A stretch of DNA of 59,711 nucleotides from Microcaldota archaeon (lineage in GTDB: Archaea; Micrarchaeota; Micrarchaeia; Micrarchaeales; CABMGC01), in the NCBI GenBank assembly GCA_021817325.1, contig JAKAVK010000023.1, positions 1 through 59,711 of the forward strand, in the 5' to 3' direction. This document shows, in pieces, positions 1 to 51,276 of this stretch (position 1 is its first letter; each line of letters opens with the position of its first letter). A program made the translations under genes and the position numbers. A model generated the notes under the pieces. The model was not told the origin of the DNA. It was given only the letters and a program-made list of their open reading frames with translations, and did not search any database.

Positions 1-53
1 TCTGAACGCTGTTTCAATAAACCTCTTATACCTGGAGTCTCCTCTCTCTTTCA
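1..53 (-). CDS. Possible transposase N-terminus, cut by the window edge
   Basis: An ATG at 53 on the minus strand opens a frame (MKERGDSRYKRF...) that runs off the left edge, giving 18 visible residues. It lies about 60 nt inside a candidate terminal inverted repeat at 115-133 whose near-copy occurs at the other end of the window, so I read it as the first codons of an IS transposase. The assignment rests on position more than on the short sequence. It is too short to name a family. Confidence 0.3.
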
Positions 54-77
54 TGGTTGTCGCCAAATAACAACCAT

Positions 78-101
78 GCCGAAGGGTTAAAATCCTTCGG
101 C
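78..101. repeat. Perfect 8-bp hairpin, IS200/IS605-like
   Basis: GCCGAAGG and CCTTCGGC pair around an 8-nt loop. On the minus strand the hairpin is followed by CATGGTTG. A similar hairpin with an ATTTT-type loop start is at 13105-13125. Hairpins of this kind mark the ends of IS200/IS605-type elements, but no tnpA or tnpB is recognised beside it, so it could equally be a leader hairpin or a terminator. Confidence 0.4.
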
Positions 102-114
102 TCCTAATGCGAAT

Positions 115-133
115 ATAGGATTTCTACAAAGCC
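115..133 (-). repeat. Candidate IS terminal inverted repeat (left end)
   Basis: The 19-mer ATAGGATTTCTACAAAGCC on the plus strand (minus: GGCTTTGTAGAAATCCTAT) recurs with one mismatch at 59571-59589. The two copies are oriented so that one can be the left and the other the right end of an IS carried on the minus strand. The GGCT start resembles terminal repeats of DDE-type insertion sequences. No second end of the same copy lies inside the window. Confidence 0.45.
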
Positions 134-323
134 CTATTACCATGTTCTGAAATAAGAATTTATCTACATGATTTTGATTTACTCCCTGTTCTAAGCGTTC
201 CTTTAATATCCTAAGATGAGCTAATGATGAAACCTCATATACAAACACTTTTCTTAACCCTCTTTTGGCTTCACGATTGTCTCTGAATACCATCATATCA
301 TTTCATTATTTTGCTGGCTTGAC

Positions 324-527
324 TTAATAAGTCCTAACCATCTGTCGCCCAAGTCCTACCGCTATCCCTGCGCACTGCGCTGGCGTTAGTCCATTAAGCG
401 TTGTGTGAGGTCTTACGAAGTTGTAATAAGCCTGCCAGTTGTCTACGGATCTCTGCGCTGTCTTTTCACTCTTGAAGCCACGAATGGCCTTGCGAACAAG
501 GGCCAGAACATCTAAAATTGAAAGCAA
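324..527 (-). pseudogene. DDE (rve-type) transposase C-terminal remnant
   Basis: The 67-residue frame ends in the typical tail of IS integrase-core transposases: a helix with ...SVDNWQAYYNFVRPHT followed by LNGLTPAQCAGI. In intact family members this stretch holds the last part of the catalytic core, and complete enzymes are 200 residues or more. The residues expected to carry the first two catalytic acids are absent, and nothing upstream on the minus strand supplies them, so this is a dead fragment. It marks the left end of the window as an insertion-sequence graveyard. Confidence 0.6.
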
Positions 528-669
528 CTTATAGCTAATTGTAAGAGTTTGCAGTTGGACATTTCTCTACCATTTGCATAGCTGCGTCCAAAGCTGCAAG
601 CTTACTACGAGTGTCAGAGAGTTACTTCACAAATTGCCTTGCCAGGCAGGTTGCTCTGTCCATTGCACC

Positions 670-2079
670 TTAAAGGCCCATACCCCTACTGCCAGGAGGA
701 TATCTCTGCCCATATCCTCCATCATCGCCATAGGATATATGAGGTTCCCGCTGGCCACCGGATGAAGAAGAGCCCCCCGAGCCCTTTTTACTCCCAGGCC
801 CAGAGATTGATGGCCCAGAGCCAAAGAACATACTGATCCCAATACCAACCACAATAACTACAAGTCCCAACTTAACTAGATCTCCAGCTATAGTAAATAT
901 AGCGCTTGTTGCTTGCTGAATCTGACCTTTCCCGAAGTATTCAGTTCCGCTTTGATTTATAGTAGTGTAGAAGTCGCTCGACACTTCAGATACCTCATTG
1001 CTACTTAATTTATACCCCTTCCCATCTATTGTTTCGTAGGCTGGTATTAAAAACGGAATATCTACAGAGAGACCATATAAGCCCTGTTGCAGTTGATATG
1101 GGCCACTTAGATAGGGTGTGTTGCCATTCGCATTAGGCGCTATGAAAAACTGAACAATACTTCCAGGCTTATAATATCCGCTGCCTAGGCGGAGGCATGT
1201 GGAAGGTGGAAATACAGTAATCTCGCTTTTTGGCGCATTGTAGACTAGGTTAAGATGGTAACATAGGCCTTTTGGGGCTACTGGCATTGCTTTTGGAATG
1301 CTAAGATTAGGATACCAGACAGCCGCAAGGGCGTTGGTGGAAGCATCTGAATTGTATGCTTGGGGCATGGAGACATTCATAGCGTTTAGAGTCTCTATGG
1401 CATTCTGTGTTACCTTTACTTTATAAGTCGTTGTTGTTTCGCCTAGATTCTCTGAAAAACTAGCCAACTTTGCACCTATTGGCCCCCTGATCTTTAATTT
1501 TAAATAGCTCAGACTCATAAAGTTTATATCGATCTCAATGGATGTCCCTGGTTTATAAAAATTCCCGCTCCCTGCAACATATGAATTTCCTACAGGTGCC
1601 GTGCAGTTGGGCGGCGTTTCTACGGATATCTGGTTTGGGTCCTGATTAATTATATCTATCCTGTAACATCCATCGGCCTTTTTAAAGGCTTTATCTGAAT
1701 AACCAGGATATGGAGCAGGTGGTTTTGGCTTGTTTAGAATAGTCGGCGCTGGAGCATTTCCAATGTCGAATCCACTACTAGACAATCCGCCAGCCCATAT
1801 GGCACCTGCCAAGATACCAACCGCAGCTGCAGTACGCAAAGACGACTTCCAAACCGATCTTCGTCTTGCAGCGCTGTAACTCCCTATGCTAGTTTCATTG
1901 TAGCCGGTGGCTTTACGTTTAACTAGTTTGAATGGTATTGTGTCTCCATCATACTCACGCACCAAGGCAGTAAAATTCGCGGCACTGCCTGATTCCAAGT
2001 GCAGTAGTACGTTGCCTCCTCCGCACATGGATGCCACTCTAGCAGGGGCATTGCGCATTATCCTTCTTTGCAGTTCCAT
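670..2079 (-). CDS. Membrane-anchored surface protein of unknown function
   Basis: A 469-residue protein if it starts at ATG 2079 (MELQRRIMRN...); the longer ORF start at 2175 would overlap the preceding gene by 68 nt. A short cytoplasmic-looking N-terminus is followed by one hydrophobic segment (TAAAVGILAGAIWAGGL, about residue 80-97), a long polar region with many N-glycosylation sequons and four scattered cysteines, then a second membrane segment (LVKLGLVVIVVGIGISMFF) and a Gly/Ser-rich tail with SSSSGG runs. It lies 28 nt behind the repeat-rich surface protein at 2108-4546 and is probably cotranscribed with it. I recognise no family; a cell-envelope role is inferred from the topology and the neighbour. 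Confidence 0.65.
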   Translation of the reverse strand: MELQRRIMRNAPARVASMCGGGNVLLHLESGSAANFTALVREYDGDTIPFKLVKRKATGYNETSIGSYSAARRRSVWKSSLRTAAAVGILAGAIWAGGLSSSGFDIGNAPAPTILNKPKPPAPYPGYSDKAFKKADGCYRIDIINQDPNQISVETPPNCTAPVGNSYVAGSGNFYKPGTSIEIDINFMSLSYLKLKIRGPIGAKLASFSENLGETTTTYKVKVTQNAIETLNAMNVSMPQAYNSDASTNALAAVWYPNLSIPKAMPVAPKGLCYHLNLVYNAPKSEITVFPPSTCLRLGSGYYKPGSIVQFFIAPNANGNTPYLSGPYQLQQGLYGLSVDIPFLIPAYETIDGKGYKLSSNEVSEVSSDFYTTINQSGTEYFGKGQIQQATSAIFTIAGDLVKLGLVVIVVGIGISMFFGSGPSISGPGSKKGSGGSSSSGGQREPHISYGDDGGYGQRYPPGSRGMGL

Positions 2080-2107
2080 TGCTTTTGCCACCGTATATGA
2101 AAGAAAT

Positions 2108-4546
2108 TTATCCCTCAGTTGGCCCACTGTACCCTGCTGGGTACACCACCTTACCTGAAGAGGTAAAGATAACATATGCTGTATTCTCGCTGCTATACTC
2201 TCCCTGCGCTGCCAGATTGTAGTTCAACACCGAATTGGCATCGGGAAGGTAGTATTCGCCATATCCTGGTGCCTGGTAGAAGCCAGATCCGTACCACGGT
2301 AGCAGCGCAGGTATGTCACCTTGGGGCACTGTGTATGGCTTGCTAATGCTGCCAGTGCCTTTCCCTTCGAGCTGCTGCTCGGTATTTAGTGCGGACTGGT
2401 ATGTAGCATCATTCGAGCTGTTTATTTGGTTTATCTGAGTCTGGGAAAGAGGCACTGCAGGGGTAACTAACTCAAGTATTGTTGTATATTTGCCGTCTGA
2501 GTAGCTGTAGGTTACACTCACAACCGTATCTGCAGTTGTGCTTGGCGGTGCTACAATTCCCTGCAGTGTCTCTGTTGTTGGGCTTGATGGAAGTGTTGTG
2601 GTAGTAGATGTCGTTGATGTTGTCTGAGGCAATGTAGGCGCAGTTGTAGTTGTAGTTGTAGTTGTTGGCAGGGATGTGCTGCCTGTGAAGGGATCTACTT
2701 TGGTGTACACTACTGCATCCGACGGCGTGACCACAACCCACCATCCTGTATCCGTCTCCTGCGCTAATGATCCTATGGGAGCAGCATTGCTTCCGTATAC
2801 CTTGCCAACATTCTGGGCAGTTACTGTCTGCGGGCTGCCTACGTAACTTCCGTGTCCATTGGTGTTGGCAGGCATGGAAAGTTCCACAGTTGTTGTGGTA
2901 GTAGATGTCGTTGATGTTGTCTGAGGCAATGTAGGCGCAGTTGTAGTTGTAGTTGTTGGCAGGGATGTGCTGCCTGTGAAGGGATCTACTTTGGTGTACA
3001 CTACTGCATCCGACGGTGTGACCACAACCCACCATCCTGTATCCGTCTCCTGCGCTAATGATCCTATGGGAGCAGCATTGCTTCCGTATACCTTGCCAAC
3101 ATTCTGGGCAGTTACTGTCTGCGGGCTGCCTACGTAACTTCCGTGTCCATTGGTGTTGGCAGGCATGGAAAGTTCCACAGTTGTTGTGGTAGTAGATGTC
3201 GTTGATGTTGTCTGAGGCAATGTAGGCGCAGTTGTAGTTGTAGTTGTTGGCAGGGATGTGCTGCCTGTGAAGGGGCTGGAGTTCCTGCGTATAAGGGTGC
3301 GCCAAGGTGTCATTATAAACCACTTATCACCAGTAGTATTCACTGCCAGTGAGCCTGGTGGAGCAGCATCCCTTCCATCTATCTTTGTGACATCGCCTGA
3401 GGTTACCTCATATGCGCTGCCAGAGGATGAGTGGGTTGACATGGCTTTCATAAACGGAATAGGCATTCCACATAGGGCAGCAGGAGCTACGATGCAGGAG
3501 AAATGGGCTGAAGGGACTGTGACTGTTCTGTCTATATTTATGCCATCGCCTTTTAGGATGGCCGTTACCTCTGTACCAGAAAGAGAGCTTTCTGTCCAGG
3601 TTTTGTTGAATATGTTATAATTAAAATAGGCATACTGAGAAGTTAGATTTAATATAGCCGTAGTATTGGAATCCGTATTGCTGTTCCAGTATGATACAGC
3701 AAAAGATCCAGACTTCCCGGCCAACCCTGCAGTGATAGTGCCATTGAGACTAGCTCCTGCATTTATCTCAAAAGCACTTCCCTCTACGTTTAACTGGCGG
3801 CCTGGCAATGCTATATCCAATCCTCCCCCAAGGCCCACATCGACTGCAACACCGGAGTCCTTTGGGTTATTAGTATCAAGCAATAAGTCAACTGAGGCGA
3901 TTAAATTAAACCCTATTACGATATTCCACGTGCCATTGGAGTACATAGCCCCTAGAGGAAGAAGGCTAGTTATAAGACCCTCTGTGGATGGCGGCGGGCA
4001 TGCCTTAGACATGAACGAAGGACTTAAGCTTGCATTGAAATTTTTTTGAAAGTCGTTGTCCAGCGTTTGCGCCTGGGCGCAGGTCATCCCTATCACATAA
4101 GCGGTTGAGTCTGTTCCTTGAGGGGACGTAAAATGGAGCTGGTTAGGCGACGTTGCCAGGTTATACAGACTAAGATTTACATCTACGCTTATTGGCGGCT
4201 TGCCGCTCTGGTTAAGCGTTGCAATGCTAGTGATGGTACTTGTCGGTTCACCACCGACCGTTGTTACTGCGCTTGAAACAGATTTGGGTACGTATACCTT
4301 GGTGTCTGTCACAATGACATCTGCAGTATCTGCTTCTTGCGCATGAAAACCTGTGGAAAACAGCGTATCGACATGCTGGGCTCCGGGTATCATCATTGCA
4401 GCTGCAACAGCCACGCTAGTAGCCCTGTGAAGCGCTCTGTCCGCAACTCTAGCTTCCCATGCCCAATGGCCTGCTGCGTGCTTATTGCTTTCGCCTCGCA
4501 GCAATTCTGCCATCCTGGCGGGATCCTTGAACCTCATGCTCCTCAT
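2108..4546 (-). CDS. Secreted repeat protein with Thr-rich stalks
   Basis: About 812 residues from ATG 4546. The ORF track runs on to 4882, but that overlaps the divergent regulator, and a TATA box at 4567-4577 places a transcript start at about 4546. ATG 4513 is the alternative start. A hydrophobic stretch (ATSVAVAAAMMIPGAQ) looks like a signal or anchor. A beta-rich region with many NxS/T sequons follows, then three copies of a roughly 45-residue module. The first is diverged (DVTKIDGRDAAPPGSLA) and the next two are nearly identical (NVGKVYGSNAAPIGSLA). The modules are separated by stalks of almost pure Thr (LPTTTTTTAPTLPQTT) likely to be O-glycosylated. A non-repeated C-terminal domain ends the protein. 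No anchor is visible at the C-terminus. Family unknown; an extracellular adhesin or S-layer-associated role is inference. Confidence 0.7.
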   Translation of the reverse strand: MRSMRFKDPARMAELLRGESNKHAAGHWAWEARVADRALHRATSVAVAAAMMIPGAQHVDTLFSTGFHAQEADTADVIVTDTKVYVPKSVSSAVTTVGGEPTSTITSIATLNQSGKPPISVDVNLSLYNLATSPNQLHFTSPQGTDSTAYVIGMTCAQAQTLDNDFQKNFNASLSPSFMSKACPPPSTEGLITSLLPLGAMYSNGTWNIVIGFNLIASVDLLLDTNNPKDSGVAVDVGLGGGLDIALPGRQLNVEGSAFEINAGASLNGTITAGLAGKSGSFAVSYWNSNTDSNTTAILNLTSQYAYFNYNIFNKTWTESSLSGTEVTAILKGDGINIDRTVTVPSAHFSCIVAPAALCGMPIPFMKAMSTHSSSGSAYEVTSGDVTKIDGRDAAPPGSLAVNTTGDKWFIMTPWRTLIRRNSSPFTGSTSLPTTTTTTAPTLPQTTSTTSTTTTTVELSMPANTNGHGSYVGSPQTVTAQNVGKVYGSNAAPIGSLAQETDTGWWVVVTPSDAVVYTKVDPFTGSTSLPTTTTTTAPTLPQTTSTTSTTTTTVELSMPANTNGHGSYVGSPQTVTAQNVGKVYGSNAAPIGSLAQETDTGWWVVVTPSDAVVYTKVDPFTGSTSLPTTTTTTTTAPTLPQTTSTTSTTTTLPSSPTTETLQGIVAPPSTTADTVVSVTYSYSDGKYTTILELVTPAVPLSQTQINQINSSNDATYQSALNTEQQLEGKGTGSISKPYTVPQGDIPALLPWYGSGFYQAPGYGEYYLPDANSVLNYNLAAQGEYSSENTAYVIFTSSGKVVYPAGYSGPTEG
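2661..3242. repeat. Two tandem 291-bp in-frame repeats
   Basis: GTTGTTGGCAGGGATGTGCT recurs at 2661, 2952 and 3243, a period of exactly 291 bp (97 codons). The first two units differ at only one obvious position (gacggcgtga against gacggtgtga). The third start runs only into the stalk and then a diverged module. The near-identity at DNA level indicates recent duplication or ongoing homogenisation, and predicts copy-number variation between strains. Confidence 0.9.
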
Positions 4547-4566
4547 GCAACTATATAAGCATTTTG

Positions 4567-4577
4567 TATATTTAAGA
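4567..4577 (-). promoter_or_regulatory. TATA box of the surface-protein operon
   Basis: On the minus strand this reads TCTTAAATATA. Its centre is 26 nt from ATG 4546, giving a leaderless start. A second box (CTTATATAG, 4552-4559) would instead fit ATG 4513 with a leader of about 16 nt. Confidence 0.5.
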
Positions 4578-4611
4578 CCTTTTAGACATTTTTTGCCTAA
4601 AAATAGTAAGA

Positions 4612-4619
4612 ATTTAAAT
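4612..4619 (+). promoter_or_regulatory. TATA box of the Lrp-like gene
   Basis: TTTAAATA centred at about 4615.5 predicts transcription from about 4642, exactly at the second ATG (4643). The first ATG (4628) would then lie upstream of the transcript. Confidence 0.5.
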
Positions 4620-4642
4620 ATTTTTAGATGGATTTGGATAAC

Positions 4643-5716
4643 ATGCGCAACTTGTATGGAAGCGGCAGAGGCCCGGCAGCAAAGCTCGATCTTAAAGACA
4701 GAAAGATACTTGCAGCACTTGGGGAGGATGCCAGGGCTCCACTCAGCCGCATAGCAAAGGAAGTCGGCCTTTCCAGGGATTCCGTAGAGTACAGGATAAA
4801 CAAGTATATGAAGGAAGGCATACTGGGTAATTGCATCACTGTTGTGCGCTCGCAGAGGATGGGATATGGAATGACCCTCCATCTCTATCTAAAGTTAAAC
4901 AACCCATCACCTGATACCGAGAGGTCATTGATAGACATGGTGTCCGAGATGCCCTTTACAGTGGCGGTGTGGAAGTTTTTCGGTGCCTTTGACATGGAGG
5001 TTACCTTTATAGCAAAGGATCCCTCACAGGCCAGTTCTATAATCTCGAATATTCTCTCGATGGCAGGCAAGTCGGTGCAGGATTATGAACTTGCAGTCTG
5101 GACCAAAAACTATCTGAGTGGCTCTTTCCCGCGAAGCTTCCTGAAGGGGTTGGACGATACATATTATATCTCACCGAGAGCACAGGGTTACTACTTTGGC
5201 GGTACTAGTGGAAATCCCCTTAATTTCAATCCTAAGTTATCGCAGGCAAATTATGTGCCCGATAGCAAGGACATGAAGATACTCAAGATAATCGGTGATG
5301 ATGCTCGCACCCCGCTCATAGATATTGCAAGGAAGGTTGGTATGTCCCAAGGCATGGTGAGATACAGACTAGAGGCCATGAAAGAGAATCTGATAGTGGC
5401 CTTCGTGCCTACACTTAACTACGAGGCACTAGGTTACACTATGTATGCACTGCTGCTGAACATCCATGTGTTAAAGGAAGAAGACGATAAACGCTTGCAG
5501 GAGTTCTTTTACAACAACGATTCTATCTTATGGGCCATAGGTGCCATAGGCAGATTCAATGTGCTTGTTAATGTATGCTGTAGGAAGGAATCAGAATTCC
5601 AGAAGATGCTCAACGATATCAGGCATGAGTTCCCTGACAGCATAAAGGAATATGAACTACTCCATGCGGTAGAGGAATACAAGTATACATATACCCCAGA
5701 ATGCATGTTCAGGTGA
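4643..5716 (+). CDS. Double Lrp/AsnC-type transcriptional regulator
   Basis: A 357-residue protein built from two Lrp/AsnC units; the usual length is about 150. The first winged-helix domain (LDLKDRKILAALGEDARAP, then SRIAKEVGLSRDSVEYRI) is near residues 15-60. The second (DSKDMKILKIIGDDARTP, then IARKVGMSQGMVRYRL) is near 210-255. Each is followed by a beta-alpha-beta ligand-type domain. Family members bind DNA and sense amino acids or related effectors. The start at 4643 is chosen from the TATA spacing; ATG 4628 adds five residues. It diverges from the surface-protein operon and may control it (inference). A fused pair would act as a pseudo-dimer within one chain. Confidence 0.8.
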   Translation: MRNLYGSGRGPAAKLDLKDRKILAALGEDARAPLSRIAKEVGLSRDSVEYRINKYMKEGILGNCITVVRSQRMGYGMTLHLYLKLNNPSPDTERSLIDMVSEMPFTVAVWKFFGAFDMEVTFIAKDPSQASSIISNILSMAGKSVQDYELAVWTKNYLSGSFPRSFLKGLDDTYYISPRAQGYYFGGTSGNPLNFNPKLSQANYVPDSKDMKILKIIGDDARTPLIDIARKVGMSQGMVRYRLEAMKENLIVAFVPTLNYEALGYTMYALLLNIHVLKEEDDKRLQEFFYNNDSILWAIGAIGRFNVLVNVCCRKESEFQKMLNDIRHEFPDSIKEYELLHAVEEYKYTYTPECMFR

Positions 5717-5852
5717 AGGATGCATCATAGGCATGTGTAATGCGTGATTTTATGCGCTTCTGCTTAACCGTTTACTATCTTGAATTAAGCACGTTAAGGT
5801 AATAAGGCACTTTTGTCACCGCGAAGCAGTTCTACTAGATTCGTGTTAACTG

Positions 5853-5935
5853 TTATACTGCCAGTCTTATGATGTGGTAGCCGAACTGAGACCTGTCGTC
5901 AGAACAGTCCAAAAGGCCATATATAGTAGTTTGGC
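5853..5935 (-). pseudogene. Relic of a parvulin 3' end
   Basis: Read on the minus strand, the sequence gives YGLLDCSDDRSQFGYHIIRLAV and a stop. This matches the C-terminus of the intact parvulin at 7646-7921 ([16 protein letters not shown]). Only this tail survives, with no start or N-terminal half. It contains a 22-bp perfect direct repeat shared with the intact gene. The copies therefore flank the STT3-like gene between them. Confidence 0.6.
5867..5888. repeat. 22-bp direct repeat, left copy (att-like)
   Basis: TTATGATGTGGTAGCCGAAC and two further bases are identical to 7660-7681. The copies are 1,793 bp apart in the same orientation and enclose the AT-rich gene 6012-7586. Identity stops abruptly on both sides. 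Confidence 0.75.
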
Positions 5936-5980
5936 TTATGCAATGATAATTGGAAGTAACTCGGCTTATTACCTTCACAT

Positions 5981-5988
5981 TTTTAAAT
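5981..5988 (+). promoter_or_regulatory. TATA box of the STT3-like gene
   Basis: TTTTAAAT, centre about 5985, lies about 27 nt before ATG 6012, so the mRNA would be leaderless. Confidence 0.5.
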
Positions 5989-6011
5989 CTTAATAATTAA
6001 TGATTTAGCAT

Positions 6012-7586
6012 ATGAAACCATTATTTTTAGTTGTTATTATAGGAATCTTGTTTATATTAGTAATCCTTTACTATTTTGGTGTACAGCCAACTAAAACAGA
6101 GACATTTTTTAGAAATACAAGTGTCGAGTTGTTGGCAAATTATAGCAGGCAACCACTTAGCATAGGCTATTATGCAATAGGGACCATTAAATTTTTATGT
6201 GTAGCAGGTAAAGTCCAATACTGTTATTTGCCGAATAGGAATAATTATACATATAACAATTTTACAGTAGATGTCAATAATAATTTTAGCGAACTCGTTT
6301 ATCAATATAACATAACTCTGAAGAAAGTACCATTAGTTGTAAATCCACCACAAAAATATATTTTTACAGTTCTGAATTATTCTTATGGTAACTTTAATAT
6401 CGGAATAATTCCTTTAGTCAACATATCAAACATATCATCCTTTGTACAAGATTATGGCGTGTCGAATAGCAAAGTAAATTTTAACTTTAAAAACCAGTTA
6501 CAAGCTGGTAATAGTTACATTGCAACTATACAAGTAAGTAAGAACTTTTTAGAAAACTATCCTGAAGTGTGCATCGACCAAGACTGCCAAATGCTTGGGT
6601 GTATAAGCACAGTTGCAAGCAGTACAAGCTCAGATTTGACCCCATTAAATATGACTATACAAGAAACAGTTACTCCAGAAAAAACGTATGGGGTCTATTG
6701 TTCCCTACCTGCCGATGTAGATTGGCTGAGTGCACTTTCTTGGATAAACCAGAATGTAGGACTAAATGCGCCAAAGGTGCTGGCATGGTGGGATTATGGT
6801 GATTGGATAAATTGGTTTGGAAACAGCAGCAGTGTAATTAGAGGAGAGAATCAAACTCCGCAGAAAGACTATCAAGTTGCAGCTGATCTGGTTTTGACAC
6901 AGGAAGACAATTTCACACCTACAACTTTAGTAAACTTCATGGATCAGAATAAGGCACAATATGTATTATTTGATGACCAACTTGTACAAAAATGGGGTGC
7001 ACTAGATTTCTTAGCATGCACATACATAAATCAAACAAGCGCACAGTATGCAGAACAGGCAGGCACATTAGATGGTAGAGCATATGCGCTAGGAACATCA
7101 AACTGCGAGCAGAGGCACGATCCTGCATATATTTTCGTAGGTACAAATCCCAATTCATATAACCATTGTGTTATTGGAGGAAATGTAACAGCTAACTATA
7201 TAACAGGACAAGTTGTAATAGGCGACGCAGTAAATGGCACGTATTACTGTGTGCCCATATCAGTTCTAACTAATAGGACAGAGGGATATTTACTTAATGA
7301 TAACGGAACAAAATCTAACATCATAATAAATCCATCTATCACTAGTGGCACTGTAGAAGTTCAGGGGCAGCAATATTTGATTTTCCTCTTGCTTTATATG
7401 CCAAATGGACCCAACGACACGATAACTAATGCGCCAACTCAGTTCTATAGCTCAGTATATTATAAGGGATTTTTCCTAGGGACTCTGCCAGGATTCAGAC
7501 AAGTTTACCCTAAAGTGAATGGGACTAATTTTGTTAATTCCACCCAGAAAATAAGGATATATAAACTTGTTAACTATAGCGGTTGA
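6012..7586 (+). CDS. Stand-alone STT3/AglB-like WWDYG-domain protein
   Basis: A 524-residue protein with one N-terminal membrane anchor (LFLVVIIGILFILVILYYF) and a large extracellular part. At residues 259-263 it has WWDYG, in the context VLAWWDYGDWINWFGN. This is the signature of the C-terminal domain of oligosaccharyltransferases STT3/AglB/PglB, where the motif binds the Ser/Thr of the N-glycosylation sequon. The following region (DLVLTQEDNFTPTTLVNFM...YVLFDDQLV) also fits that domain. The roughly 13-helix catalytic half that normally precedes it is missing, so the protein cannot transfer glycan by itself. It is strikingly AT-rich against its neighbours, rich in sequons and contains several cysteines. 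It may help a separate catalytic subunit, bind sequons, or be a decoy; these roles are inference. It lies between 22-bp direct repeats. Confidence 0.7.
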   Translation: MKPLFLVVIIGILFILVILYYFGVQPTKTETFFRNTSVELLANYSRQPLSIGYYAIGTIKFLCVAGKVQYCYLPNRNNYTYNNFTVDVNNNFSELVYQYNITLKKVPLVVNPPQKYIFTVLNYSYGNFNIGIIPLVNISNISSFVQDYGVSNSKVNFNFKNQLQAGNSYIATIQVSKNFLENYPEVCIDQDCQMLGCISTVASSTSSDLTPLNMTIQETVTPEKTYGVYCSLPADVDWLSALSWINQNVGLNAPKVLAWWDYGDWINWFGNSSSVIRGENQTPQKDYQVAADLVLTQEDNFTPTTLVNFMDQNKAQYVLFDDQLVQKWGALDFLACTYINQTSAQYAEQAGTLDGRAYALGTSNCEQRHDPAYIFVGTNPNSYNHCVIGGNVTANYITGQVVIGDAVNGTYYCVPISVLTNRTEGYLLNDNGTKSNIIINPSITSGTVEVQGQQYLIFLLLYMPNGPNDTITNAPTQFYSSVYYKGFFLGTLPGFRQVYPKVNGTNFVNSTQKIRIYKLVNYSG

Positions 7587-7645
7587 CCATTTAATCTGTC
7601 ATTTTACGAAGCACTATCCAAATTTGTTATTCTCAGCTATAATCC

Positions 7646-7921
7646 TTACGAAGTCCTCTTTATGATGTGGTAGCCGAACTGTGTCTTTACTATCCCAGAA
7701 ACTTTGCCTTTTTCCAATGTGAATGCCGCGCTCTCGAACTCCCTGACCATCATGCCCCTGCCGAAGAAGCCAAGGTCCCCTCCCATCTTCCTGGATCCAT
7801 CAATAGAATACTGCTCAGCCAGCTTCGCAAAGCTCTCGCCTTTGTTGAGCTTATCCAGCACCTCTTTTGCAGTTGCCTCGTTGCTGACCAGTATATGCGC
7901 GCATCTTATCCTGCTTGCCAT
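7646..7921 (-). CDS. Parvulin-type peptidyl-prolyl isomerase
   Basis: A 91-residue single-domain PpiC/rotamase. It starts RCAHILVSN (conserved His 9), has the [17 protein letters not shown] core near 48-62 and FESAAFTL, and ends [12 protein letters not shown] with the conserved His at 85. The length matches known small archaeal and human Par10-like parvulins, which catalyse cis/trans isomerisation of Xaa-Pro bonds. There is no signal peptide, so it is cytoplasmic. The ATPase/permease operon lies just upstream on the same strand (8 nt gap to 7930). A fragment of a second copy of its 3' end lies at 5853. Confidence 0.9.
7660..7681. repeat. 22-bp direct repeat, right copy (inside the parvulin gene)
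   Basis: Identical to 5867-5888. It encodes the conserved FGYHII end of the parvulin, so an insertion here would leave the gene intact and create the partial copy, as integrases do at tRNA 3' ends. Confidence 0.75.
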
Positions 7922-7929
7922 ATTATCCC

Positions 7930-8652
7930 TTATTTAGTACGCCACTGCGTAAGCGGCTTTGCTATGATGAAGTATACAATCGTCTCAATTATTAAGACCA
8001 GCGGTGCGTACCACAAAAACGGTGTGAGCTCTGCCATGTTCTGGATCATTATTGCTGCCGATGTCACCGGGGAAAGCATAAATATGTAGAGTAGTGGCGC
8101 GGGCAGCACCGTGTACTTGTAGAATAGCGGCGGCACGAAAGTGAATACAACAGTCAGTATTCCAAGGAAGCCCCAGACGTTGCGCAGATGCTTTGGTATG
8201 GATGCGAGTATGAGCGCCAGCGCAGATATAGAAACCGCGAGGAGTACCAGTATTGGCGCTATCGCGATCAGCCACACTGCAGGGAAGAGGTGCATAAAGA
8301 GTGCTATCGCTATGTAGACAAGTATGCCAGGCAGGGAGAAGATGATGTTGCTAAACGAGATAGCCAGCATGTAGTCAAGCACTGTCACGCTGCTTGCCAC
8401 GAAGAGGTCCTGCAGTTTCAGTTCTATCCTGTTCATTGCTACGTCAGACAGACCATACAGCGCGCCTGTGGCTGTAATTGAGACAAGGCCGCCTATCACC
8501 GCCAGTGGTATCAGCGCACCTCCTGATATTATGCCGAACAGAAATAGCAGGGCAAGCGGAGTTGCCATATATCCAAGCGTATAGGAGAAGCCCCTTTTTA
8601 TGGCTTCGACCCCTGTTGTCCATGCATATAATGCAATGAATCGAAAGTTCAT
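7930..8652 (-). CDS. ABC-2 type transporter permease
   Basis: A 240-residue integral membrane protein with about six hydrophobic segments ([89 protein letters not shown]; a C-terminal [14 protein letters not shown]). The topology and the fourth-segment [12 protein letters not shown] pattern fit the permease of ABC-2 exporters of the DrrB/NatB type. Its ATG overlaps the stop of the ATPase gene by 4 nt (ATGA), so the two are translationally coupled and form one exporter. The substrate is unknown. Confidence 0.8.
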
Positions 8653-9482
8653 TTACCATCACCCTTCATTATGAATAAATCCTCCAGGTCGACCGGCTTT
8701 ACCACATATCCGCTTTGAGCATATCTGCTTGCCTCACGGGCCCTGACATAGGAGATCGAAGTGCCTCCTATGTTGTAGTCTCCTTTTTCCCCACCGGTTG
8801 ACTCCACCCTGACCATCCCTGCGCTCTTCCTGAGCAGCCTCTCCACAGTCCCATGGGCCTTCATCCTGCCTTCGTCTATCATCACTATGTCCTTTGTAAG
8901 CTCCTTGGCCTCCTCTATGTAATGGGTGGTGAGCACCATCTTACTTCCAAGTTTCCTAAGCGCGGACCAGACCTCGAGCCTCGATATCGGGTCGAGGCCT
9001 ACGGTGGGCTCGTCAAGGAAGATGATTTCTGCGTTGGATGCCATCGCCATGCCAACGAAGATCTTTCTCTTCATACCACCTGAGAGCTCGTCGGCTGTCT
9101 TATTCCTCGCCTCCCAGAGTCCTATCTCCTTCATCACTCGCATGGTCTCCTGCCGCGCAGTAGAAAAAGACATGCCCCTTGCTGTAAGGTATATCTTGAT
9201 GTGCTCCTCAGGCGTAAGGTAGCCCAATGGGCCTGCTTCCTGTGGTATGCTTACCATCTTCTTCCTAAGTTTGTCTGCCTCTCTTACTACGTCATAGCCG
9301 TCTATGGTTGCATGGCCGCTCGTAGGCAGAAGCTGTGTCGATAGTATCCTGAGCATGGTCGTCTTTCCAGCACCGTTCCTGCCAAGGACTGCGGTCGCCT
9401 TCTCCTCAAGAGCGAGGTCTATGCCCCTGAGCGCATATGTGCCTCCGGGGTACCTCTTCCTAAGGCCTCTTACCTCTATCAT
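8649..9482 (-). CDS. ABC transporter ATP-binding protein
   Basis: A 277-residue nucleotide-binding subunit. Walker A GRNGAGKTT is at 34-42, the signature LSGGMKRK near 133, Walker B IIFLDEPTVGLDP near 153, and the H-loop LTTHYIEEA near 184. The short C-terminal domain is typical of drug/lipid-export (DrrA-like) ATPases. The Q-loop reads VSIPQEAG. It drives the permease encoded by the overlapping downstream gene. A TATA element in the 57-nt divergent spacer predicts a leaderless start at 9482. Confidence 0.92.
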   Translation of the reverse strand: MIEVRGLRKRYPGGTYALRGIDLALEEKATAVLGRNGAGKTTMLRILSTQLLPTSGHATIDGYDVVREADKLRKKMVSIPQEAGPLGYLTPEEHIKIYLTARGMSFSTARQETMRVMKEIGLWEARNKTADELSGGMKRKIFVGMAMASNAEIIFLDEPTVGLDPISRLEVWSALRKLGSKMVLTTHYIEEAKELTKDIVMIDEGRMKAHGTVERLLRKSAGMVRVESTGGEKGDYNIGGTSISYVRAREASRYAQSGYVVKPVDLEDLFIMKGDGK

Positions 9483-9502
9483 CTTATCTAATACGGATAT
9501 CC

Positions 9503-9518
9503 CATAAATATTAATAAA
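9503..9518. promoter_or_regulatory. AT-rich divergent TATA region
   Basis: CATAAATATTAATAAA lies in the 57-bp gap between divergent starts 9482 and 9540. CATAAATATT read leftward fits a start near 9482, and TATTAATAAA read rightward fits 9540. Overlapping or shared TATA elements would drive both genes. Confidence 0.45.
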
Positions 9519-9539
9519 GCGTTTTGATATCAGTATATC

Positions 9540-10292
9540 ATGGATCTAGTCGAAAGGCTCCGCACCATCATGGGTGTGAGGAAGAGAACCTTCAAAGATG
9601 GGGGGAATGTGATAGAGATAACAGAGAGCGAGTCGGAGAAGACAATGAGATTCAACAATATAGTCTATTCAAGGATAAACAGGAACGTCTATACGCATCA
9701 GTATTGGGATTTCTTCGTGCCGATAGCATCGTTGTATGAGAACCCCCGCATACTCATGATAGGCCTGGGCGCCGGCACGGTGCCGTACCAGTTGGTAAGG
9801 CTCATGGAAGGAGGATACAGCATAGACGTGGTGGAGATAAGCAAACCAATAATCGACGAGTATAACTCTTCAGAGCAGAGCAATGACGCGCATGTGCGCA
9901 TCTTCCAGGGAGATGGTGCAGACTACGTACACAACAACAGAGATGCATACGACGTCATAATACTCGATGCGTTTGTCGATGCAAACATACCTGCCCAGTT
10001 CTTCACGGAGGACTTTATCGCCAATGCGAATGCCTGTCTGAAGCAGGATGGCATACTGGCCATAAACTACCTCAATCCAGCAAACGGTGCCACCAACGTG
10101 GAAGAGTACAGAGCAAAACTCGGGAGGTTCTTCAAAATCTACGAGATACGCATTTCTGGAGTCGCGCTGAATCACATACTTCTCTGCTCAAAGAGGATGG
10201 GGAAGGAGGAGATGGTGTCACTTATAAGGGGAAAGATCAGCGAGACAAGAGAGAATGCATTCATACTCCGGGAGATAGAGCAGATGCAATAA
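9540..10292 (+). CDS. Spermidine-synthase-like protein
   Basis: A 250-residue Rossmann methyltransferase-fold protein of the SpeE-like family. An N-terminal beta domain is followed by motif I ILMIGLGAGTVPYQL (about 70-84), an acidic VVEISKP loop that binds the nucleoside part, and GDGADYVHN then YDVIILDAFVD (about 125-145). The YDxIxxDAF arrangement is typical of spermidine synthase relatives, but the strict polyamine-binding D-x-x-D pocket is not obvious. The donor may be decarboxylated AdoMet or AdoMet; the exact reaction is unsettled. It is transcribed away from the ABC operon. Confidence 0.7.
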   Translation: MDLVERLRTIMGVRKRTFKDGGNVIEITESESEKTMRFNNIVYSRINRNVYTHQYWDFFVPIASLYENPRILMIGLGAGTVPYQLVRLMEGGYSIDVVEISKPIIDEYNSSEQSNDAHVRIFQGDGADYVHNNRDAYDVIILDAFVDANIPAQFFTEDFIANANACLKQDGILAINYLNPANGATNVEEYRAKLGRFFKIYEIRISGVALNHILLCSKRMGKEEMVSLIRGKISETRENAFILREIEQMQ

Positions 10293-10410
10293 GTCGCATG
10301 GACAGGCGCAAGGCGCAGCTTAAGATGCATGCAAAGCTGCCGCAGAACTGCACCAGCGCCCTCCAATTGCACAGTTAAAAAGGCTTGCAGTGTTATATAT
10401 TCCGGTATAG

Positions 10411-11322
10411 ATGGCAAGACAGGGCACGGATTACTCGGACGTGAGCGTGATCATCCCCACAATAGAGGAGGAAGCAGTCTTCAAGCTCATAAACCAGATC
10501 CGCAGCATGCTTAAGGACGCAGAGATAATAGTTGTAGACAAGTCCAGCAACGCCTATTACGGGCGCCTGGAAGATACCGGAGTCAAGGTCATAAGGCAGA
10601 GGACCCGCGGTGTTGAGAATGCCATAATGCTCGGCCTCAGGGCAGCGAAGGGAAAGATACTTGCCAGCATTGATGCCGACGGCACCCACGACCCAGAAGG
10701 GCTTGTGCAGGGAGTGAAGCTCATAAGGGCCGGGGAAGCTGACCTGGTACTCGGCGACAGGCTCGCCCATCTGGAGAAGGGTTCGATGAGCGTATATTTG
10801 AGAATGGGAAACAGCATGCTGAGTGGACTGTTCAGCAGGATATATGGTACCAAGGTACGGGATGTCCTGACCGGCCTGTTTGTGATGGACAGGGTTGCGT
10901 TCGACGAGATAAGGAATAAGGAGCCGTACAGGGCCGGCATAGCCTTCTTTGCCATAGAGTTGGCGCGCAGGGGGTATGTGATCAAGGAGGTCGGTATAAA
11001 ATACTACAAGAGGCCCTACGGGGAATCGAAGCTGACTAGGTCCAAGACTGCATACGGCCTCAATGTTGCATCACACATCATAAGGCAGCTCAGAGACTAC
11101 AGCCCGCTGCTGGTCTTCGGAGGGTTTGGCTTCGTGGTCTTCCTTGTGGGGCTTGCTCTTGGCATAGTGGTCTTGGCTGACTTCGCTAAGACCGGCCTGT
11201 TCACGCTGTCCGGGCGTGCGCTGCTGGCCATAATGCTGATAATAGTGGGCTTCCTCATGGGAGTTGTTGGCCTAATAATAGACATGCTGCTTGAGTTGGA
11301 GAGGAAGCTGGACAGCAGGTAG
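10411..11322 (+). CDS. Family 2 glycosyltransferase with C-terminal membrane anchor
   Basis: A 303-residue GT2 enzyme of the dolichol-phosphate-mannose-synthase type. The nucleotide-sugar site begins SVIIPTIEEE, the DxD-like metal motif is IDADGTHDPEG (about 89-99), LGDRL follows, and RDVLTGLFVMDR is the acceptor-side motif. Two C-terminal membrane helices (LLVFGGFGFVVFLVGLALGIVVL and LLAIMLIIVGFLMGVVGLII) resemble extended DPM synthases that hand sugar to lipid carriers. Start 10411 follows a possible TATA (GTTAAAA, 10374); GTG 10441 would still keep the catalytic core. It plausibly supplies a polyprenol-linked sugar to surface glycosylation, which fits the heavily glycosylated surface proteins nearby (inference). 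Confidence 0.85.
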   Translation: MARQGTDYSDVSVIIPTIEEEAVFKLINQIRSMLKDAEIIVVDKSSNAYYGRLEDTGVKVIRQRTRGVENAIMLGLRAAKGKILASIDADGTHDPEGLVQGVKLIRAGEADLVLGDRLAHLEKGSMSVYLRMGNSMLSGLFSRIYGTKVRDVLTGLFVMDRVAFDEIRNKEPYRAGIAFFAIELARRGYVIKEVGIKYYKRPYGESKLTRSKTAYGLNVASHIIRQLRDYSPLLVFGGFGFVVFLVGLALGIVVLADFAKTGLFTLSGRALLAIMLIIVGFLMGVVGLIIDMLLELERKLDSR

Positions 11323-11398
11323 CTGCCTTGCGCCTGCTCCACATGGTCTTATGCGAATCATGCGCATATTGCTGTGACATAAAGATACAAATCCGCAT

Positions 11399-11797
11399 CT
11401 ATTCCTTGTTCAACAGATTCATGACCGAGAATGCGAAGAGCAGGATCACTAGGACATGGGTCAGTGTGCAGAAGATGCATATTGCGCCAAGCACATATTC
11501 TATGTACAGCAGGTATAGGACAAAGCCTATGCCTATTCCGTTGTAGAGCACCCTCAGATCCTTCTGCTTGAAGTATAGTAGCAGTACTATTTCCACCGCA
11601 AAGAAGACTGCCCCGAAGACCCCTAGCGGAACTCCAAATATTGTAGAATACTGGCTTGAGAGCACCTTCTGGCAGTTTATTATGCCCGTCTCGGGGCACG
11701 CCACCGGAACATTCAGATAATGGGTGACGGTAAGATAGACGCCATCGGCTACGCCGATGAGTGCAAGCAATATAAGGAACTTGTCGGCTATTCTCAT
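11399..11797 (-). CDS. VKOR-family disulfide oxidoreductase
   Basis: A 132-residue four-helix membrane protein. It shows the full vitamin K epoxide reductase homologue pattern: loop cysteines C34 and C42 (ACPETGIINCQKV), a conserved Ser pair (LSSQYS), FGVPLG, and the active-site CIFC at 107-110 at the start of the last helix. In bacteria and archaea these enzymes reoxidise a periplasmic thioredoxin-like partner by passing electrons to a quinone. The partner is almost certainly the CPYC protein encoded 8 nt upstream in the same operon. Confidence 0.92.
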   Translation of the reverse strand: MRIADKFLILLALIGVADGVYLTVTHYLNVPVACPETGIINCQKVLSSQYSTIFGVPLGVFGAVFFAVEIVLLLYFKQKDLRVLYNGIGIGFVLYLLYIEYVLGAICIFCTLTHVLVILLFAFSVMNLLNKE

Positions 11798-11805
11798 GAT
11801 CTGCC

Positions 11806-12672
11806 CTATGCGCTCTCCAGGTCCTGTATGTATGCCTGTCCACAGACATTCTGCGGCTGGTTATTGTCCATATTGCATATCTGTGCGGTGAAGAGGTTTG
11901 CCGAGCCTACTATGCCCTGCGCAACTGCGGAGGACGGGTTGTTAAGCTGATCAGCCACCTGCGTCCAGTTCATCCCCTGCAGCGTGGTCGGAAGGTACAT
12001 CGCCCCTATCTCAACAGTCTTGTTTCCGAAGTCAACGAAAGGTATGGATCCTCCTGAGTTATATGCCGCAAAGGTTACATTCTCGCTTGCATTAGGCATC
12101 TGTAGTGTGGGATAGGTTCCGTTGACGCGTGTATTCGTGGTCGTTTCAATCGGAACAAAAGCTATATATGGGCTAGAATAGGTCGTATTGTGGAATGTGA
12201 ACGTAGGTATGCTTGGCGGATAGTCTGTGGAGCTCGATGTCATATACCTAAGGTTGCTGAAGGTTCCAAACCGGCTGAGCGCTATGTACATGGCCCATCT
12301 CTGCGCCGCGCAGTACGGGCAATATTCTGCGCCTATATACAGCACTTCCGGCTTGCCGTTGGCCATAAGAGGCGATTGGTTATTGAGCTTCTCAAGGCTC
12401 TTCTCATCCGCTGCACCCAGCCCTATGCTCCTGCTGACATTGTTTGGCACGGCCAGCTTTGCCAGCAGCGACACAGGAACTTGCTTATTGTCGCTTGCTG
12501 CAATAGCAGTATTGCCGCTTCCCTGCTGGGTCGAGAACAATACCAGTACAGCAGCAACAGCCACTATAACGACCGCTATGGCAGCATAGAATACCTTCTT
12601 ATTCTTGAACAACATCGAATTCGAGCCGCCGGCCTGCCCGCTAGCGGTCTTGTTTGAGCTCTGATCCTCCAT
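11806..12672 (-). CDS. DUF929 thioredoxin-like membrane-anchored protein
   Basis: About 288 residues from ATG 12672 (the ORF track's 12681 is a TTG). A cytoplasmic tail and one anchor ([21 protein letters not shown]) place the rest outside. [24 protein letters not shown] around residues 115-138 holds the CPYC motif and the flanking sequence typical of archaeal DUF929 proteins. Two further cysteines near the end ([15 protein letters not shown]) may form a structural bond. Downstream by 8 nt is VKOR, so the pair looks like a disulfide-forming system: this protein oxidises secreted substrates and VKOR recharges it. The TATA box at 12703-12714 fits the start. Confidence 0.88.
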
Positions 12673-12702
12673 GTAATCCAACTAAATAGAATTTGCGATA
12701 CT

Positions 12703-47272: not shown

Positions 47273-47347
47273 GGGCATGTAGTGTAACCTGGATAGCACG
47301 GCAGCTTCCGGAGCTGTTGGTTGCGGGTTCAAATCCCGTCATGCCCG
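47273..47347 (+). tRNA. tRNA-Arg (CCG), integration site
   Basis: The acceptor GGGCATG pairs with CATGCCC and the discriminator is G. The anticodon arm is GCAGC-TTCCGGA-GCTGT, anticodon CCG. The T-arm is GCGGG-TTCAAAT-CCCGT. The integrase gene lies directly downstream on the same strand, a classic arrangement for an element integrated at a tRNA 3' end. The tRNA itself is complete. Confidence 0.93.
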
Positions 47348-47363
47348 TTTTTGCTAATGCTGG

Positions 47364-47395
47364 GGATAGGAGTTCAACTCTCCTCGGGCCCACCA
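47364..47395 (+). other. tRNA/tmRNA-like 3' end with encoded CCA
   Basis: GGAT-AGGAG-TTCAACT-CTCCT-CGGGCCC-A-CCA: a perfect 5-bp T-stem, a TTCAACT loop, seven acceptor nucleotides, a discriminator and CCA. The GGA before the T-stem and TTCAACT loop are usual for bacterial tmRNA 3' ends. Host tRNAs here do not encode CCA. No 5' half is present. It is probably an att-site vestige brought by an element. Confidence 0.5.
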
Positions 47396-47439
47396 AAAAC
47401 AAGCCTCTAGGCCTGCGGGTTCGGTTCCGCAGGACGGGC

Positions 47440-48336
47440 ATGACTGGAAGCAACGGAAAGGCGGGTTCGGGGTGCGTTTCCGATATGCTTCCGAACGGTC
47501 GAAAGTCCGAAAAACAGGGTTCGGGGTTGGCTTTTCAGGACTTTCTAAAACAGGCAGAGCTGCTCAGCGGCAGCGTTTCAAAGCATCAGTTAGAGCAGGT
47601 GCGCGCGATAATATCGCAGGCGCACGAACGCCGCTTTAGAAGGCGAAGAGAGCCGAGGTACGGAACGATAAACAAAGGCTTCACTGAGCCTGAGCTGCAA
47701 CGCTTCTTTAGAGCGATTGCCAGCGAGAAGTTCGCTCTTCTTTTCAAATATCAGGCATACATGGGTCTCCGAGTGGGCGAAGTCAGCAAGTTGCACATAA
47801 GCAACATCGACTTCGACAAACGAGAGCTAACATTGAAGAGCGAAAAGTCGGCGCAGCTCGACGCGCTGATAATTCCGCTTGAATTGTTCAAAGAAACAGT
47901 GGAATTTATGAATAAACATTCTGCTGAGATTAAGTTGGCCGACGGCTACATTTTCTATAAGGAAAATGATTACGGCCATACTGGAAATCTCCACATAGAC
48001 GTGAATTATATAAGAAACGTCTTCCGTGAAATAATACAGAATGCGAGTCTGGATCAGACCTACGCCACAACAGAAGAGGCGTATTCAGACCATCAGCCTA
48101 GAAGCCTGCATAGGCTTACGACTCATAGCCTGCGCCACTATGCCATTACGCACTTTGCGAAATCAACTAATGGCAACATAGTCCTAGCTTCTAGGTTTGC
48201 TAGGCATTCCAGTCCGTCAACTACGATGCGCTACATAGCGAAAGACAAGGATGAGCTATACAAAAATATAGACTTCGCCTTTAGCGACAAGATAACGCCG
48301 TTAAAGCGTCTGTCCAAGTCTATTCAGCAAAAATAG
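47440..48336 (+). CDS. Tyrosine recombinase/integrase
   Basis: About 298 residues from ATG 47440; the ORF-track start lies inside the tRNA. The catalytic domain shows the Arg box YQAYMGLRVGEVSKLHISNIDF, a Lys in TLKSEKSAQ, the H-x-x-R box HSLRHYAITHFAKS, the second His in SRFARHSS and the nucleophile Tyr in TTMRYIAKD. The N-terminal part is a short SAM-like arm domain. Such enzymes integrate archaeal plasmids and viruses at tRNA genes, which is just where it sits. It appears intact. Confidence 0.9.
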   Translation: MTGSNGKAGSGCVSDMLPNGRKSEKQGSGLAFQDFLKQAELLSGSVSKHQLEQVRAIISQAHERRFRRRREPRYGTINKGFTEPELQRFFRAIASEKFALLFKYQAYMGLRVGEVSKLHISNIDFDKRELTLKSEKSAQLDALIIPLELFKETVEFMNKHSAEIKLADGYIFYKENDYGHTGNLHIDVNYIRNVFREIIQNASLDQTYATTEEAYSDHQPRSLHRLTTHSLRHYAITHFAKSTNGNIVLASRFARHSSPSTTMRYIAKDKDELYKNIDFAFSDKITPLKRLSKSIQQK

Positions 48337-48338
48337 CT

Positions 48339-49565
48339 TTAATCAGAAAACATTTTCTTTTCTTCTGATTCGATGATGTCATCCTGCGACTGTTTTGTTG
48401 TTTCTTTTGTTTCTATAAACTTCTTTATAGCCTTTGCAAGATATTCTCTAATGGATTTGTTAGTTTCTTTTAATTTTTGCTCCGTTTGACTATTAGAGCC
48501 GTGCGCCAGTTTACTTCTTAAGTCGTACGCTTCTCTAACTTTCCCAAGAATTTCATATTTCTCGTTCTTCTCATTCCCAATAAACTGCGCCGTCCTCGCC
48601 GCCACTCCATACCCTGTAATCTTAAACAATGATTCCAGTGCTATTACATTATCAAGTAGTTTATCTTCTTCATTTTCTCGTTCATTTGCATAGTTGAATC
48701 TGCGCATAGCAATAGAAAATTCATTCCAATGGTTCTTTATAAGAGGCCAAAGTCTGACGATTTCATTAATATCCTCTTGATTAATAGCAACGACAGGTGC
48801 TTCAGGTCTCAAATTATGAGCAGGCCCTATAGACCAGTTCTGCCATTCGTCAGGCCATCCCTTTGTTTCCAATATTATTGAATTAAATCCTAAATTCCCA
48901 CTTTTAACCAGTCTAAAAGCCAAAGTAACCATATCAAATGTCTTCTTTACTTCAAGCCAGTTTATATCGGTTTTATTATCGTATAGTTTTTCTATTATAA
49001 AATTTATGCTTGATAGCTCTATGGTAGATATTGTTCTTGTGAAATTTTGTTCTGCCATTAGAAAAAGTTTGTTGAAGTCATTTTCAGAGACCCTCCTAAT
49101 TATCAATCCGTCCTCCAAATCTATTTTCTCCACTTTACAGTCAGCCTTCAGATTTAGTATGGGCACACTCGCCTTTGCCATATTGCTTGGCATGAAATAG
49201 AAATCGACTAGTCTGTAATATAGTTCATCAAATAGCTGCTCTTCAAACTCAAAATCTTCTTTCCTATCTAGGTAATTATATAGAAATGTAAATACAAAAT
49301 TTGCGCTAAACACTTCGGTAAACTGATGGTTTGCCTCTAGTTTAGGACTTTTCTTTTTTCTAATAAGTTCTATAAAGGTATTAAGGCATTCATCATGCTC
49401 TTTTAGAGGCCTAATCTGCAAATACTTTATTTGAGCGAATATAGTTATTTCAGGCAATAGTTGACTCCTTCCAAAAGAAGTTATATTTCCATATTGGTCT
49501 CTATTGGTAACCATTTTCTCCTTTTCATTTGGTATTCTCTCCTTAGATGCCGCCTCCTTAAGCAA
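48339..49565 (-). CDS. HEPN-domain protein (Apea-like), probable defence RNase
   Basis: 408 residues by the ORF track (TTG 49565; ATG 49514 is the first ATG). The C-terminal third matches Apea-like HEPN domains: NVIALESLF...GYGVAARTAQFIGN, then AYDLRSKLAHGSN, which holds the R-x4-H ribonuclease motif (R and H of RSKLAH). HEPN proteins of this type cut RNA in abortive-infection and toxin systems. The N-terminal 250 residues are unknown and AT-rich. The frame stays open about 130 nt further upstream without ATG, GTG or TTG, encoding plausible sequence (NGSERYKDYLELREKYLAF), so the true start is uncertain. Its stop faces the integrase stop across 2 nt. Confidence 0.72.
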   Translation of the reverse strand: MLKEAASKERIPNEKEKMVTNRDQYGNITSFGRSQLLPEITIFAQIKYLQIRPLKEHDECLNTFIELIRKKKSPKLEANHQFTEVFSANFVFTFLYNYLDRKEDFEFEEQLFDELYYRLVDFYFMPSNMAKASVPILNLKADCKVEKIDLEDGLIIRRVSENDFNKLFLMAEQNFTRTISTIELSSINFIIEKLYDNKTDINWLEVKKTFDMVTLAFRLVKSGNLGFNSIILETKGWPDEWQNWSIGPAHNLRPEAPVVAINQEDINEIVRLWPLIKNHWNEFSIAMRRFNYANERENEEDKLLDNVIALESLFKITGYGVAARTAQFIGNEKNEKYEILGKVREAYDLRSKLAHGSNSQTEQKLKETNKSIREYLAKAIKKFIETKETTKQSQDDIIESEEKKMFSD

Positions 49566-49662
49566 ACTAAGCGACTTTTTGATAAAAGCTAGATACTTCT
49601 CTCTAAGCTCTAAGTAATCTTTATACCTCTCACTCCCATTTGCAGCCAGAAAATAACCTCTG

Positions 49663-50094
49663 CTATACTTGTATTGACACCTTCTTATAAGCTCTCTGCG
49701 TCAACGACATGACATATACTGGGCAACTCATAATCTCTCTAAACTTCCAAGCTCTCTTTACATTAGGCTCTAGCTCACCGCTCCCAGCTATGGCAATAGC
49801 CACATCTGGCTTTATCTGAATAATCTTCTGAAAGCTTTTCCACTTTACTAGCTTATGGTGGTCGTATTCTATGGCTACTCTGAACTTTCCTTTCCTAGCC
49901 ACGAGGTCTATCCTTCCAGTCCTCTCTGGCTTATCCTTCATCTTAAAAATAGGGTATTCCCTAGTTGTGTAATAGCCGTTCTTCCTGAATATCATCTCTA
50001 ATTGATTGATTGTATCATTATGCTTTATTTCAGGACTAACTACTTTTGTTATCTGTTCCACAATCCCTTCAATCTCGCTATATGTCATTGGCAT
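49663..50094 (-). CDS. PD-(D/E)XK nuclease-like protein
   Basis: A 143-residue AT-rich protein. TGRIDLVARKGKFRVAIEYDHH shows the D-x(n)-E strand-loop-strand of PD-(D/E)XK restriction-type nucleases (the final Lys is replaced by Asp/His, as in some variants), followed by VKWKSFQKIIQIKPDVAIAI, a second typical strand. It overlaps the DUF6602-like gene by 17 nt, so both are translationally coupled. The target is unknown. A role with the HEPN and DUF6602-like proteins against mobile DNA is inference. Confidence 0.6.
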   Translation of the reverse strand: MPMTYSEIEGIVEQITKVVSPEIKHNDTINQLEMIFRKNGYYTTREYPIFKMKDKPERTGRIDLVARKGKFRVAIEYDHHKLVKWKSFQKIIQIKPDVAIAIAGSGELEPNVKRAWKFREIMSCPVYVMSLTQRAYKKVSIQV

Positions 50095-50833: not shown

Positions 50834-50835
50834 TT

Positions 50836-51276
50836 TCACACCTTTACCAGCATATAGTCATCTTTATCCGTAGTTAATTCCTTTATACTTTCCATTATCT
50901 CTTTGTTATAAGTTACCCAAGTTACAGGCAAGCCATATTTCTCCTTCTTCTCTGAATTAGCTTCAATGGCATCTTTTCTAGCCGACGTTTGTATCTCATA
51001 AGCTCGGATAGCCTTGTCACCCCATAGATACTTCTTCCGCTTATCCACAGGGTAAGCTATCAAGTCGTGAGCCTCCCGCTCCCTAGGCGCGATAACAAGC
51101 ATGTTGCTTTCGTGCAATTTCTCTATGGCTTTCGTTAGAATCTGCTTGTGCAAGTCCGAGCCTGCGTTTAGCTCGTCCTTTAGGATGGCCGCAGGATCAA
51201 CCCAGCGTCGTCCCGCCTCGGTAAGAGCGTAGCTCTTCTTGGCCTTCCTCCCCGGCCTATAAATCCTAAAACCCAA
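50836..51276 (-). CDS. wHTH-like protein, possibly the C-terminal part of a split gene
   Basis: A 146-residue frame from TTG 51276. It opens with a wing-like hairpin FRIYRPGRKAKKSYALTEAGRRWVDP of winged-helix proteins. Helices and a strand pair follow (ESNMLVIAPREREAHDLIAYPVDKRKKYLWGDKAIRAYEIQT). The expected recognition helix is missing from this frame but may be encoded just upstream in another frame (51266-51481), so a frameshift or a programmed slip is possible. It is the first gene of the defence-like operon and may regulate it. Confidence 0.5.
   Translation of the reverse strand: MGFRIYRPGRKAKKSYALTEAGRRWVDPAAILKDELNAGSDLHKQILTKAIEKLHESNMLVIAPREREAHDLIAYPVDKRKKYLWGDKAIRAYEIQTSARKDAIEANSEKKEKYGLPVTWVTYNKEIMESIKELTTDKDDYMLVKV

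Follow-up and report, generated by a model that had tools for sequence, protein, structure and literature searches.

The N-glycosylation enzymes of archaea and bacteria are described as single-subunit oligosaccharyltransferases (OSTs), with a membrane half and a globular half on one chain. According to two papers (PMC3703281; PMC8342417), the WWDYG and DK motifs make up a pocket for the Ser or Thr at position +2 of the sequon, while TIXE, a motif of EL5 in the membrane half, contributes main-chain contacts with the sequon and participates in catalysis. In some AglBs this pocket is already formed in the isolated globular domain (PMC3703281); the DGGK/DNXT motif of other OSTs is presumed to bind the lipid-linked oligosaccharide (PMC8342417). 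A full-text literature search, in which subscription papers and preprints were largely absent, returned no report of lone, split or stand-alone AglB/STT3 domains.

The window analysed here (the whole stretch of 59,711 nt, contig JAKAVK010000023.1) comes from the genome of a Microcaldota archaeon (GCA_021817325.1, here G000; 991 kb in 32 contigs, completeness 90, contamination 0.05). One of its genes, an intact frame of 524 codons (Table 1), encodes an AglB globular domain by itself; its product is called here the lone protein. Both the AlphaFold model and hydropathy give it a single hydrophobic helix, at the N-terminus, and with Lys2 ahead of this predicted anchor an N-in/C-out orientation would be expected. 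A search of 301 phylum genomes with the first 227 residues gave no strong match, and the weak matches to this region proved on reading to be unrelated proteins for the most part. Residues ~135-194 have a weak likeness to a segment at the C-terminus of a protein that is probably exported (locus L119), from another Micrarchaeaceae genome, G054: the pairwise E is 6e-4, which is no independent test because the sequence was chosen after a search, and the reverse search, of genome G000, gave E 0.004. A TATA-like sequence ahead of the gene is weakly consistent with a leaderless promoter of its own.

Table 1. Features of the lone gene and its product (window positions), and of other lone or split WWDYG proteins (locus:positions).
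Feature	Position	Strand	Basis
Lone AglB C-terminal-domain protein, 524 aa	6012..7586	+	Frame and homology
TATA-like TTTTTAAAT, 32 bases 5' of ATG	5980..5988	+	Sequence
Predicted N-terminal membrane anchor, helix residues 4-21	6021..6074	+	AlphaFold helix and hydropathy
Residues 22-224, presumed extracytoplasmic, without clear relative	6075..6683	+	Sequence searches; low-confidence model
AglB globular-domain homology, residues 225-524	6684..7583	+	Sequence, profile and structure comparison
WWDYG motif, residues 259-263	6786..6800	+	Sequence, alignment
GEN, residues 278-280 (D279 to E)	6843..6851	+	Aligned to GDN of 43/43 compared AglBs
D321...K327-W328, probable variant-type DK motif with insertion, Lys-type Ser/Thr pocket	6972..6995	+	Alignment
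Lone WWDYG lipoprotein, ~490 aa, genome G101	L166:901-2394	+	
Lone WWDYG lipoprotein, 447 aa, genome G129	L163:174-1517	-	
AglB membrane half, 771 aa, with DxD and TVAE, without WWDYG, genome G190	L142:801-3113	+	
AglB second half, 409 aa (last helix, WWDYG domain and tail), genome G190	L135:5076-6302	-	

Directly upstream is a gene for an Lrp/AsnC-type regulator with two HTH parts (window 4628-5716, forward strand), which has no close relative among the 77 other genomes of the family. On the reverse strand, 2108-4882 encodes a large protein in which Thr-rich linkers are repeated and blocks are duplicated; no Pfam model matches it. The lone gene is also adjoined by genes for a PpiC prolyl isomerase, a family 2 glycosyltransferase, VKOR and a DUF929 protein (7646-12681), some of which suggest a role in export and folding. 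Further along, 47317-51276 is AT-rich (GC ~0.38 at 48-51 kb) and lies beside a gene resembling a tyrosine recombinase; it is possibly an integrated element.

The homology of the lone protein to the AglB domain is not due to chance. The model of the STT3/PglB/AglB core (PF21436, STT3-PglB_core) matches it with 25.8 bits (E 1.7e-5), above the 23-bit gathering cut-off; in the PDB, the top phmmer match is an AglB globular domain (3vu0, E 0.0023), and a profile search also reaches such domains (E 8.7e-6). Identity to the AglB of its own genome is 53% across residues 225-524 (E 3e-100). The AlphaFold model of the whole protein has a mean pLDDT of 62 and is confident only in the C-terminal domain, with values below 50 at residues 23-175 and 182-233 and low confidence near residues 262-281; residues 225-524 modelled alone reach pLDDT 83.5 and pTM 0.85. 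Foldseek comparison with the PDB puts AglB/STT3 on top for both models (best E 3.9e-4 for the whole protein and 5e-5 for residues 225-524; probability 1.00), with modest TM-scores (at most 0.38), so that it is the core that carries the agreement in fold, and sequence gives the stronger evidence of the two. A first-pass annotation of this DNA had proposed a lone WWDYG sequon-binding domain with a one-helix anchor: sequence, profile and fold comparison all bear this out, the motif is at the residues it gave, and the predicted fold is AglB-like, not an unrelated one.

Other motifs of the domain are less certain. D321 and K327, both at invariant positions of the alignment, probably form a variant DK motif, as defined in PMC3703281 and not from a solved structure of this clade. 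GEN may be the equivalent of the DGGK/DNXT motif, following the definition in PMC8342417, and the change to Glu would suit a domain that no longer has a part in catalysis.

What the lone protein lacks is the membrane half of ~13 helices, and hence the DxD motifs and the TIXE/SVSE motif of EL5. A full-length AglB is encoded on another contig (C2), as an open frame of 1138 aa with FEFDPYFDM, GEQLLEPWG and MTVQE in its membrane half (DxD, second acidic motif and TVQE) and WWDYG in its globular half, so the lone gene is not a broken AglB. The STT3 model PF02516 finds this AglB only below its cut-off; family models are thus weak for this clade. When it was compared with window positions 1-9000 by tblastn, only 6687-7583 matched, apart from a chance-level match of 18 residues, and there was no relic of a membrane half. 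The absence of the catalytic half, claimed at first inspection, therefore holds.

Selection has maintained the lone domain. Of 92 columns with at least 90% conservation across 43 AglBs, it retains 83; at states common to the two closest AglBs, 81 of 90 conserved positions are kept as against 27 of 69 variable ones (p 9e-12), which indicates that AglB-type constraint acted on the copy's own branch. Two residues invariant among the 43 AglBs have changed (R255K and D279E), and the C-terminal tail carried by all 80 inspected distinct AglB ends (64 by a strict pattern, the other 16 as judged by eye) is missing; together these may mark a loss of contact with the membrane half. A tree built from 54 globular domains places the copy among AglBs of genus g18 (95/93), apart from its own genus, on a branch of 0.94 (median 0.16). 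An AU test does not reject a position within its own genus (p 0.12), so that transfer from g18 is only favoured, by the free tree, over duplication of its own AglB. The copy is AT-rich: its GC3 is 0.30, whereas most of its neighbours and the genome's own AglB have ~0.60. It is present in 1 of 79 genomes of the family, and none of the other 78 has a lone copy beside AglB; for synteny of the insertion site within the genus, the best relative contig is only 3 kb long. A viral, phage or plasmid origin was considered and set aside, the domain having no relative in IMG/VR, INPHARED or PLSDB.

The first-pass annotation had also proposed a search of related genomes for other lone copies, and these exist. 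Among 301 Micrarchaeota genomes, searched with this domain, a second lone protein and a six-sequence profile, there are at least three further intact lone WWDYG proteins (in G101, G129 and G190), making at least four in all. Those of G101 and G129 (family f4) have a lipobox and a Cys-rich N-terminal region, with a 34% match to each other over residues 5-357, and both genomes also encode a full-length AglB. Among the best 80 relatives in named genomes, every frame with WWDYG is an AglB, either whole or truncated at a contig end or gap, and none is a lone copy. Split or lone candidates in G006, G007, G057, G216, G234, G139, G149, G153, G284 and G300 were rejected as contig-edge or N-gap pieces. 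The AglB of G240 (L137:5926-11040, reverse strand; 1705 aa) has several Ig-like-looking repeats inserted within its globular domain.

In G190 (family f2, a single-contig genome) AglB itself is encoded in two separate parts, ~4.5 kb apart on opposite strands; the membrane-half gene comes directly after a gene read as rps3 and overlaps its end. Against full-length AglB, the two halves align over residues 18-108, 202-691 and 757-1135, with ~109-201 and 691-757 uncovered. As they jointly cover most of AglB, they probably work in trans there, and the split hints that the two halves of an AglB can function as separate parts. The same genome encodes an 827-aa STT3-like protein (L217:969-3449, forward strand), which was not counted as a missing AglB because WPDG replaces WWDYG.

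The reading that we favour, with a probability of about 0.4, is that the lone protein is an acceptor-side accessory beside the full-length AglB; it is preferred to domain swapping, co-option as a surface module and functionless capture. The gene product would be membrane-anchored, with an outer domain that corresponds to the acceptor-recognising part of AglB and is no longer joined to a catalytic half. Its WWDYG/Lys pocket would bind Asn-X-Ser/Thr stretches as proteins emerge on the outer side of the membrane and, presumably in contact with AglB, would either hold these sequons for it or, at chosen sites, withhold them from it. Sugar transfer by the lone protein itself is not expected, as it has neither DxD nor EL5/TIXE. 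With WWDYG and the probable DK motif kept and TIXE absent it could at most bind acceptors, perhaps weakly, given the main-chain contacts attributed to TIXE (PMC8342417). Of the roles first suggested for this protein, regulating or assisting N-glycosylation is plausible, with indirect support from the pocket residues retained under selection and from the split AglB of G190; the idea that it recognises glycoproteins of another cell is without specific support.

The domain might instead have been co-opted into an exported glycoprotein, where it would serve structure or adhesion and would no longer have a role in glycosylation. It is fused to an unrelated outer region, its branch is long, two probable surface proteins are encoded nearby (670-4882; one has repeated Thr-rich blocks), and the protein has 22 sequons in 524 aa, where 7.3 are expected from composition, the highest density in the window. 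The density within the domain is normal, though (4.2 per 100 aa; AglB globular domains have 2.6-4.5), and the pocket residues are retained with the AglB pattern of constraint, making this reading rather unlikely. It seems decidedly unlikely that the domain docks on the membrane half of AglB in place of the latter's own globular domain and changes which acceptors are chosen, in the manner of a modular enzyme. The split AglB of G190 does suggest that the parts can be separate polypeptides, but the AglB here already has a globular domain, the anchor lies 200 aa from the domain whereas the last helix of AglB adjoins it, the C-terminal tail is lost and the GDN motif is altered.

A piece of AglB gained by transfer or duplication and now drifting would account for a gene known in one genome only, for its low GC3 and for its place among the g18 AglBs. 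One argument against such a functionless capture is that the frame has stayed open over 524 codons and carries a new anchor; another is the preferential retention of conserved positions, and an own-genus origin is in any case not rejected, so that we regard it as unlikely. Least probable by far is an artefact of assembly or binning (a chimeric contig or a broken AglB), which had been raised at the outset to explain the missing half. The sharp change of composition at the lone gene and its position 6 kb from the contig end could be read in this way, but there is a full-length AglB elsewhere and no membrane-half relic nearby; the ABC permease downstream shares 62% identity with a protein from the same genus, so that the contig fits the genome, and other genomes have lone WWDYG proteins too.

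If the accessory reading is extended to the phylum, the OST of Micrarchaeota might be modular, with acceptor recognition that can be supplied in trans. Membrane half and WWDYG domain would be separable, as the split in G190 suggests, and the extra anchored WWDYG proteins of G000, G101 and G129 would then serve as alternative subunits for acceptor recognition or for shielding of sites, altering the set of glycosylated sequons. This is conceivable but doubtful. Lone anchored WWDYG proteins and a naturally split AglB would offer separate, testable parts for the share of the globular domain in sequon binding, and would signal accessory acceptor-side factors of a prokaryotic OST in a lineage with very small archaeal genomes.

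Among known systems, the lone protein has in common with AglB, STT3 and PglB (PDB 3vu0, 3vu1, 2zag, 3wov) a homologous globular domain with WWDYG, a probable DK motif of variant type and an expected location of the domain outside the membrane. It differs from them in having no 13-helix membrane half, DxD, EL5/TIXE or C-terminal tail, and in its one anchor, at the N-terminus, and its unrelated region of 200 aa. The split AglB of G190 likewise has a separately encoded anchor and WWDYG domain, but that piece retains the last helix and tail of AglB and has a separately encoded membrane half as its counterpart; in G000 the lone protein comes in addition to a complete AglB. In the lipoproteins of G101 and G129, too, a lone WWDYG domain is tethered to the membrane (lipobox), and each genome has a full-length AglB as well; their Cys-rich N-terminal region is unlike that of the G000 protein, and the two, related to each other, need not be orthologues of the G000 gene. 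Eukaryotic OST-A, with the GRP94 pre-N segment and CCDC134 (PMC12804085), bears no sequence relation to the lone protein, and there a substrate segment occupies the acceptor site of STT3A itself; it is an analogy of working only, as a case in which the use of acceptor sites is controlled.
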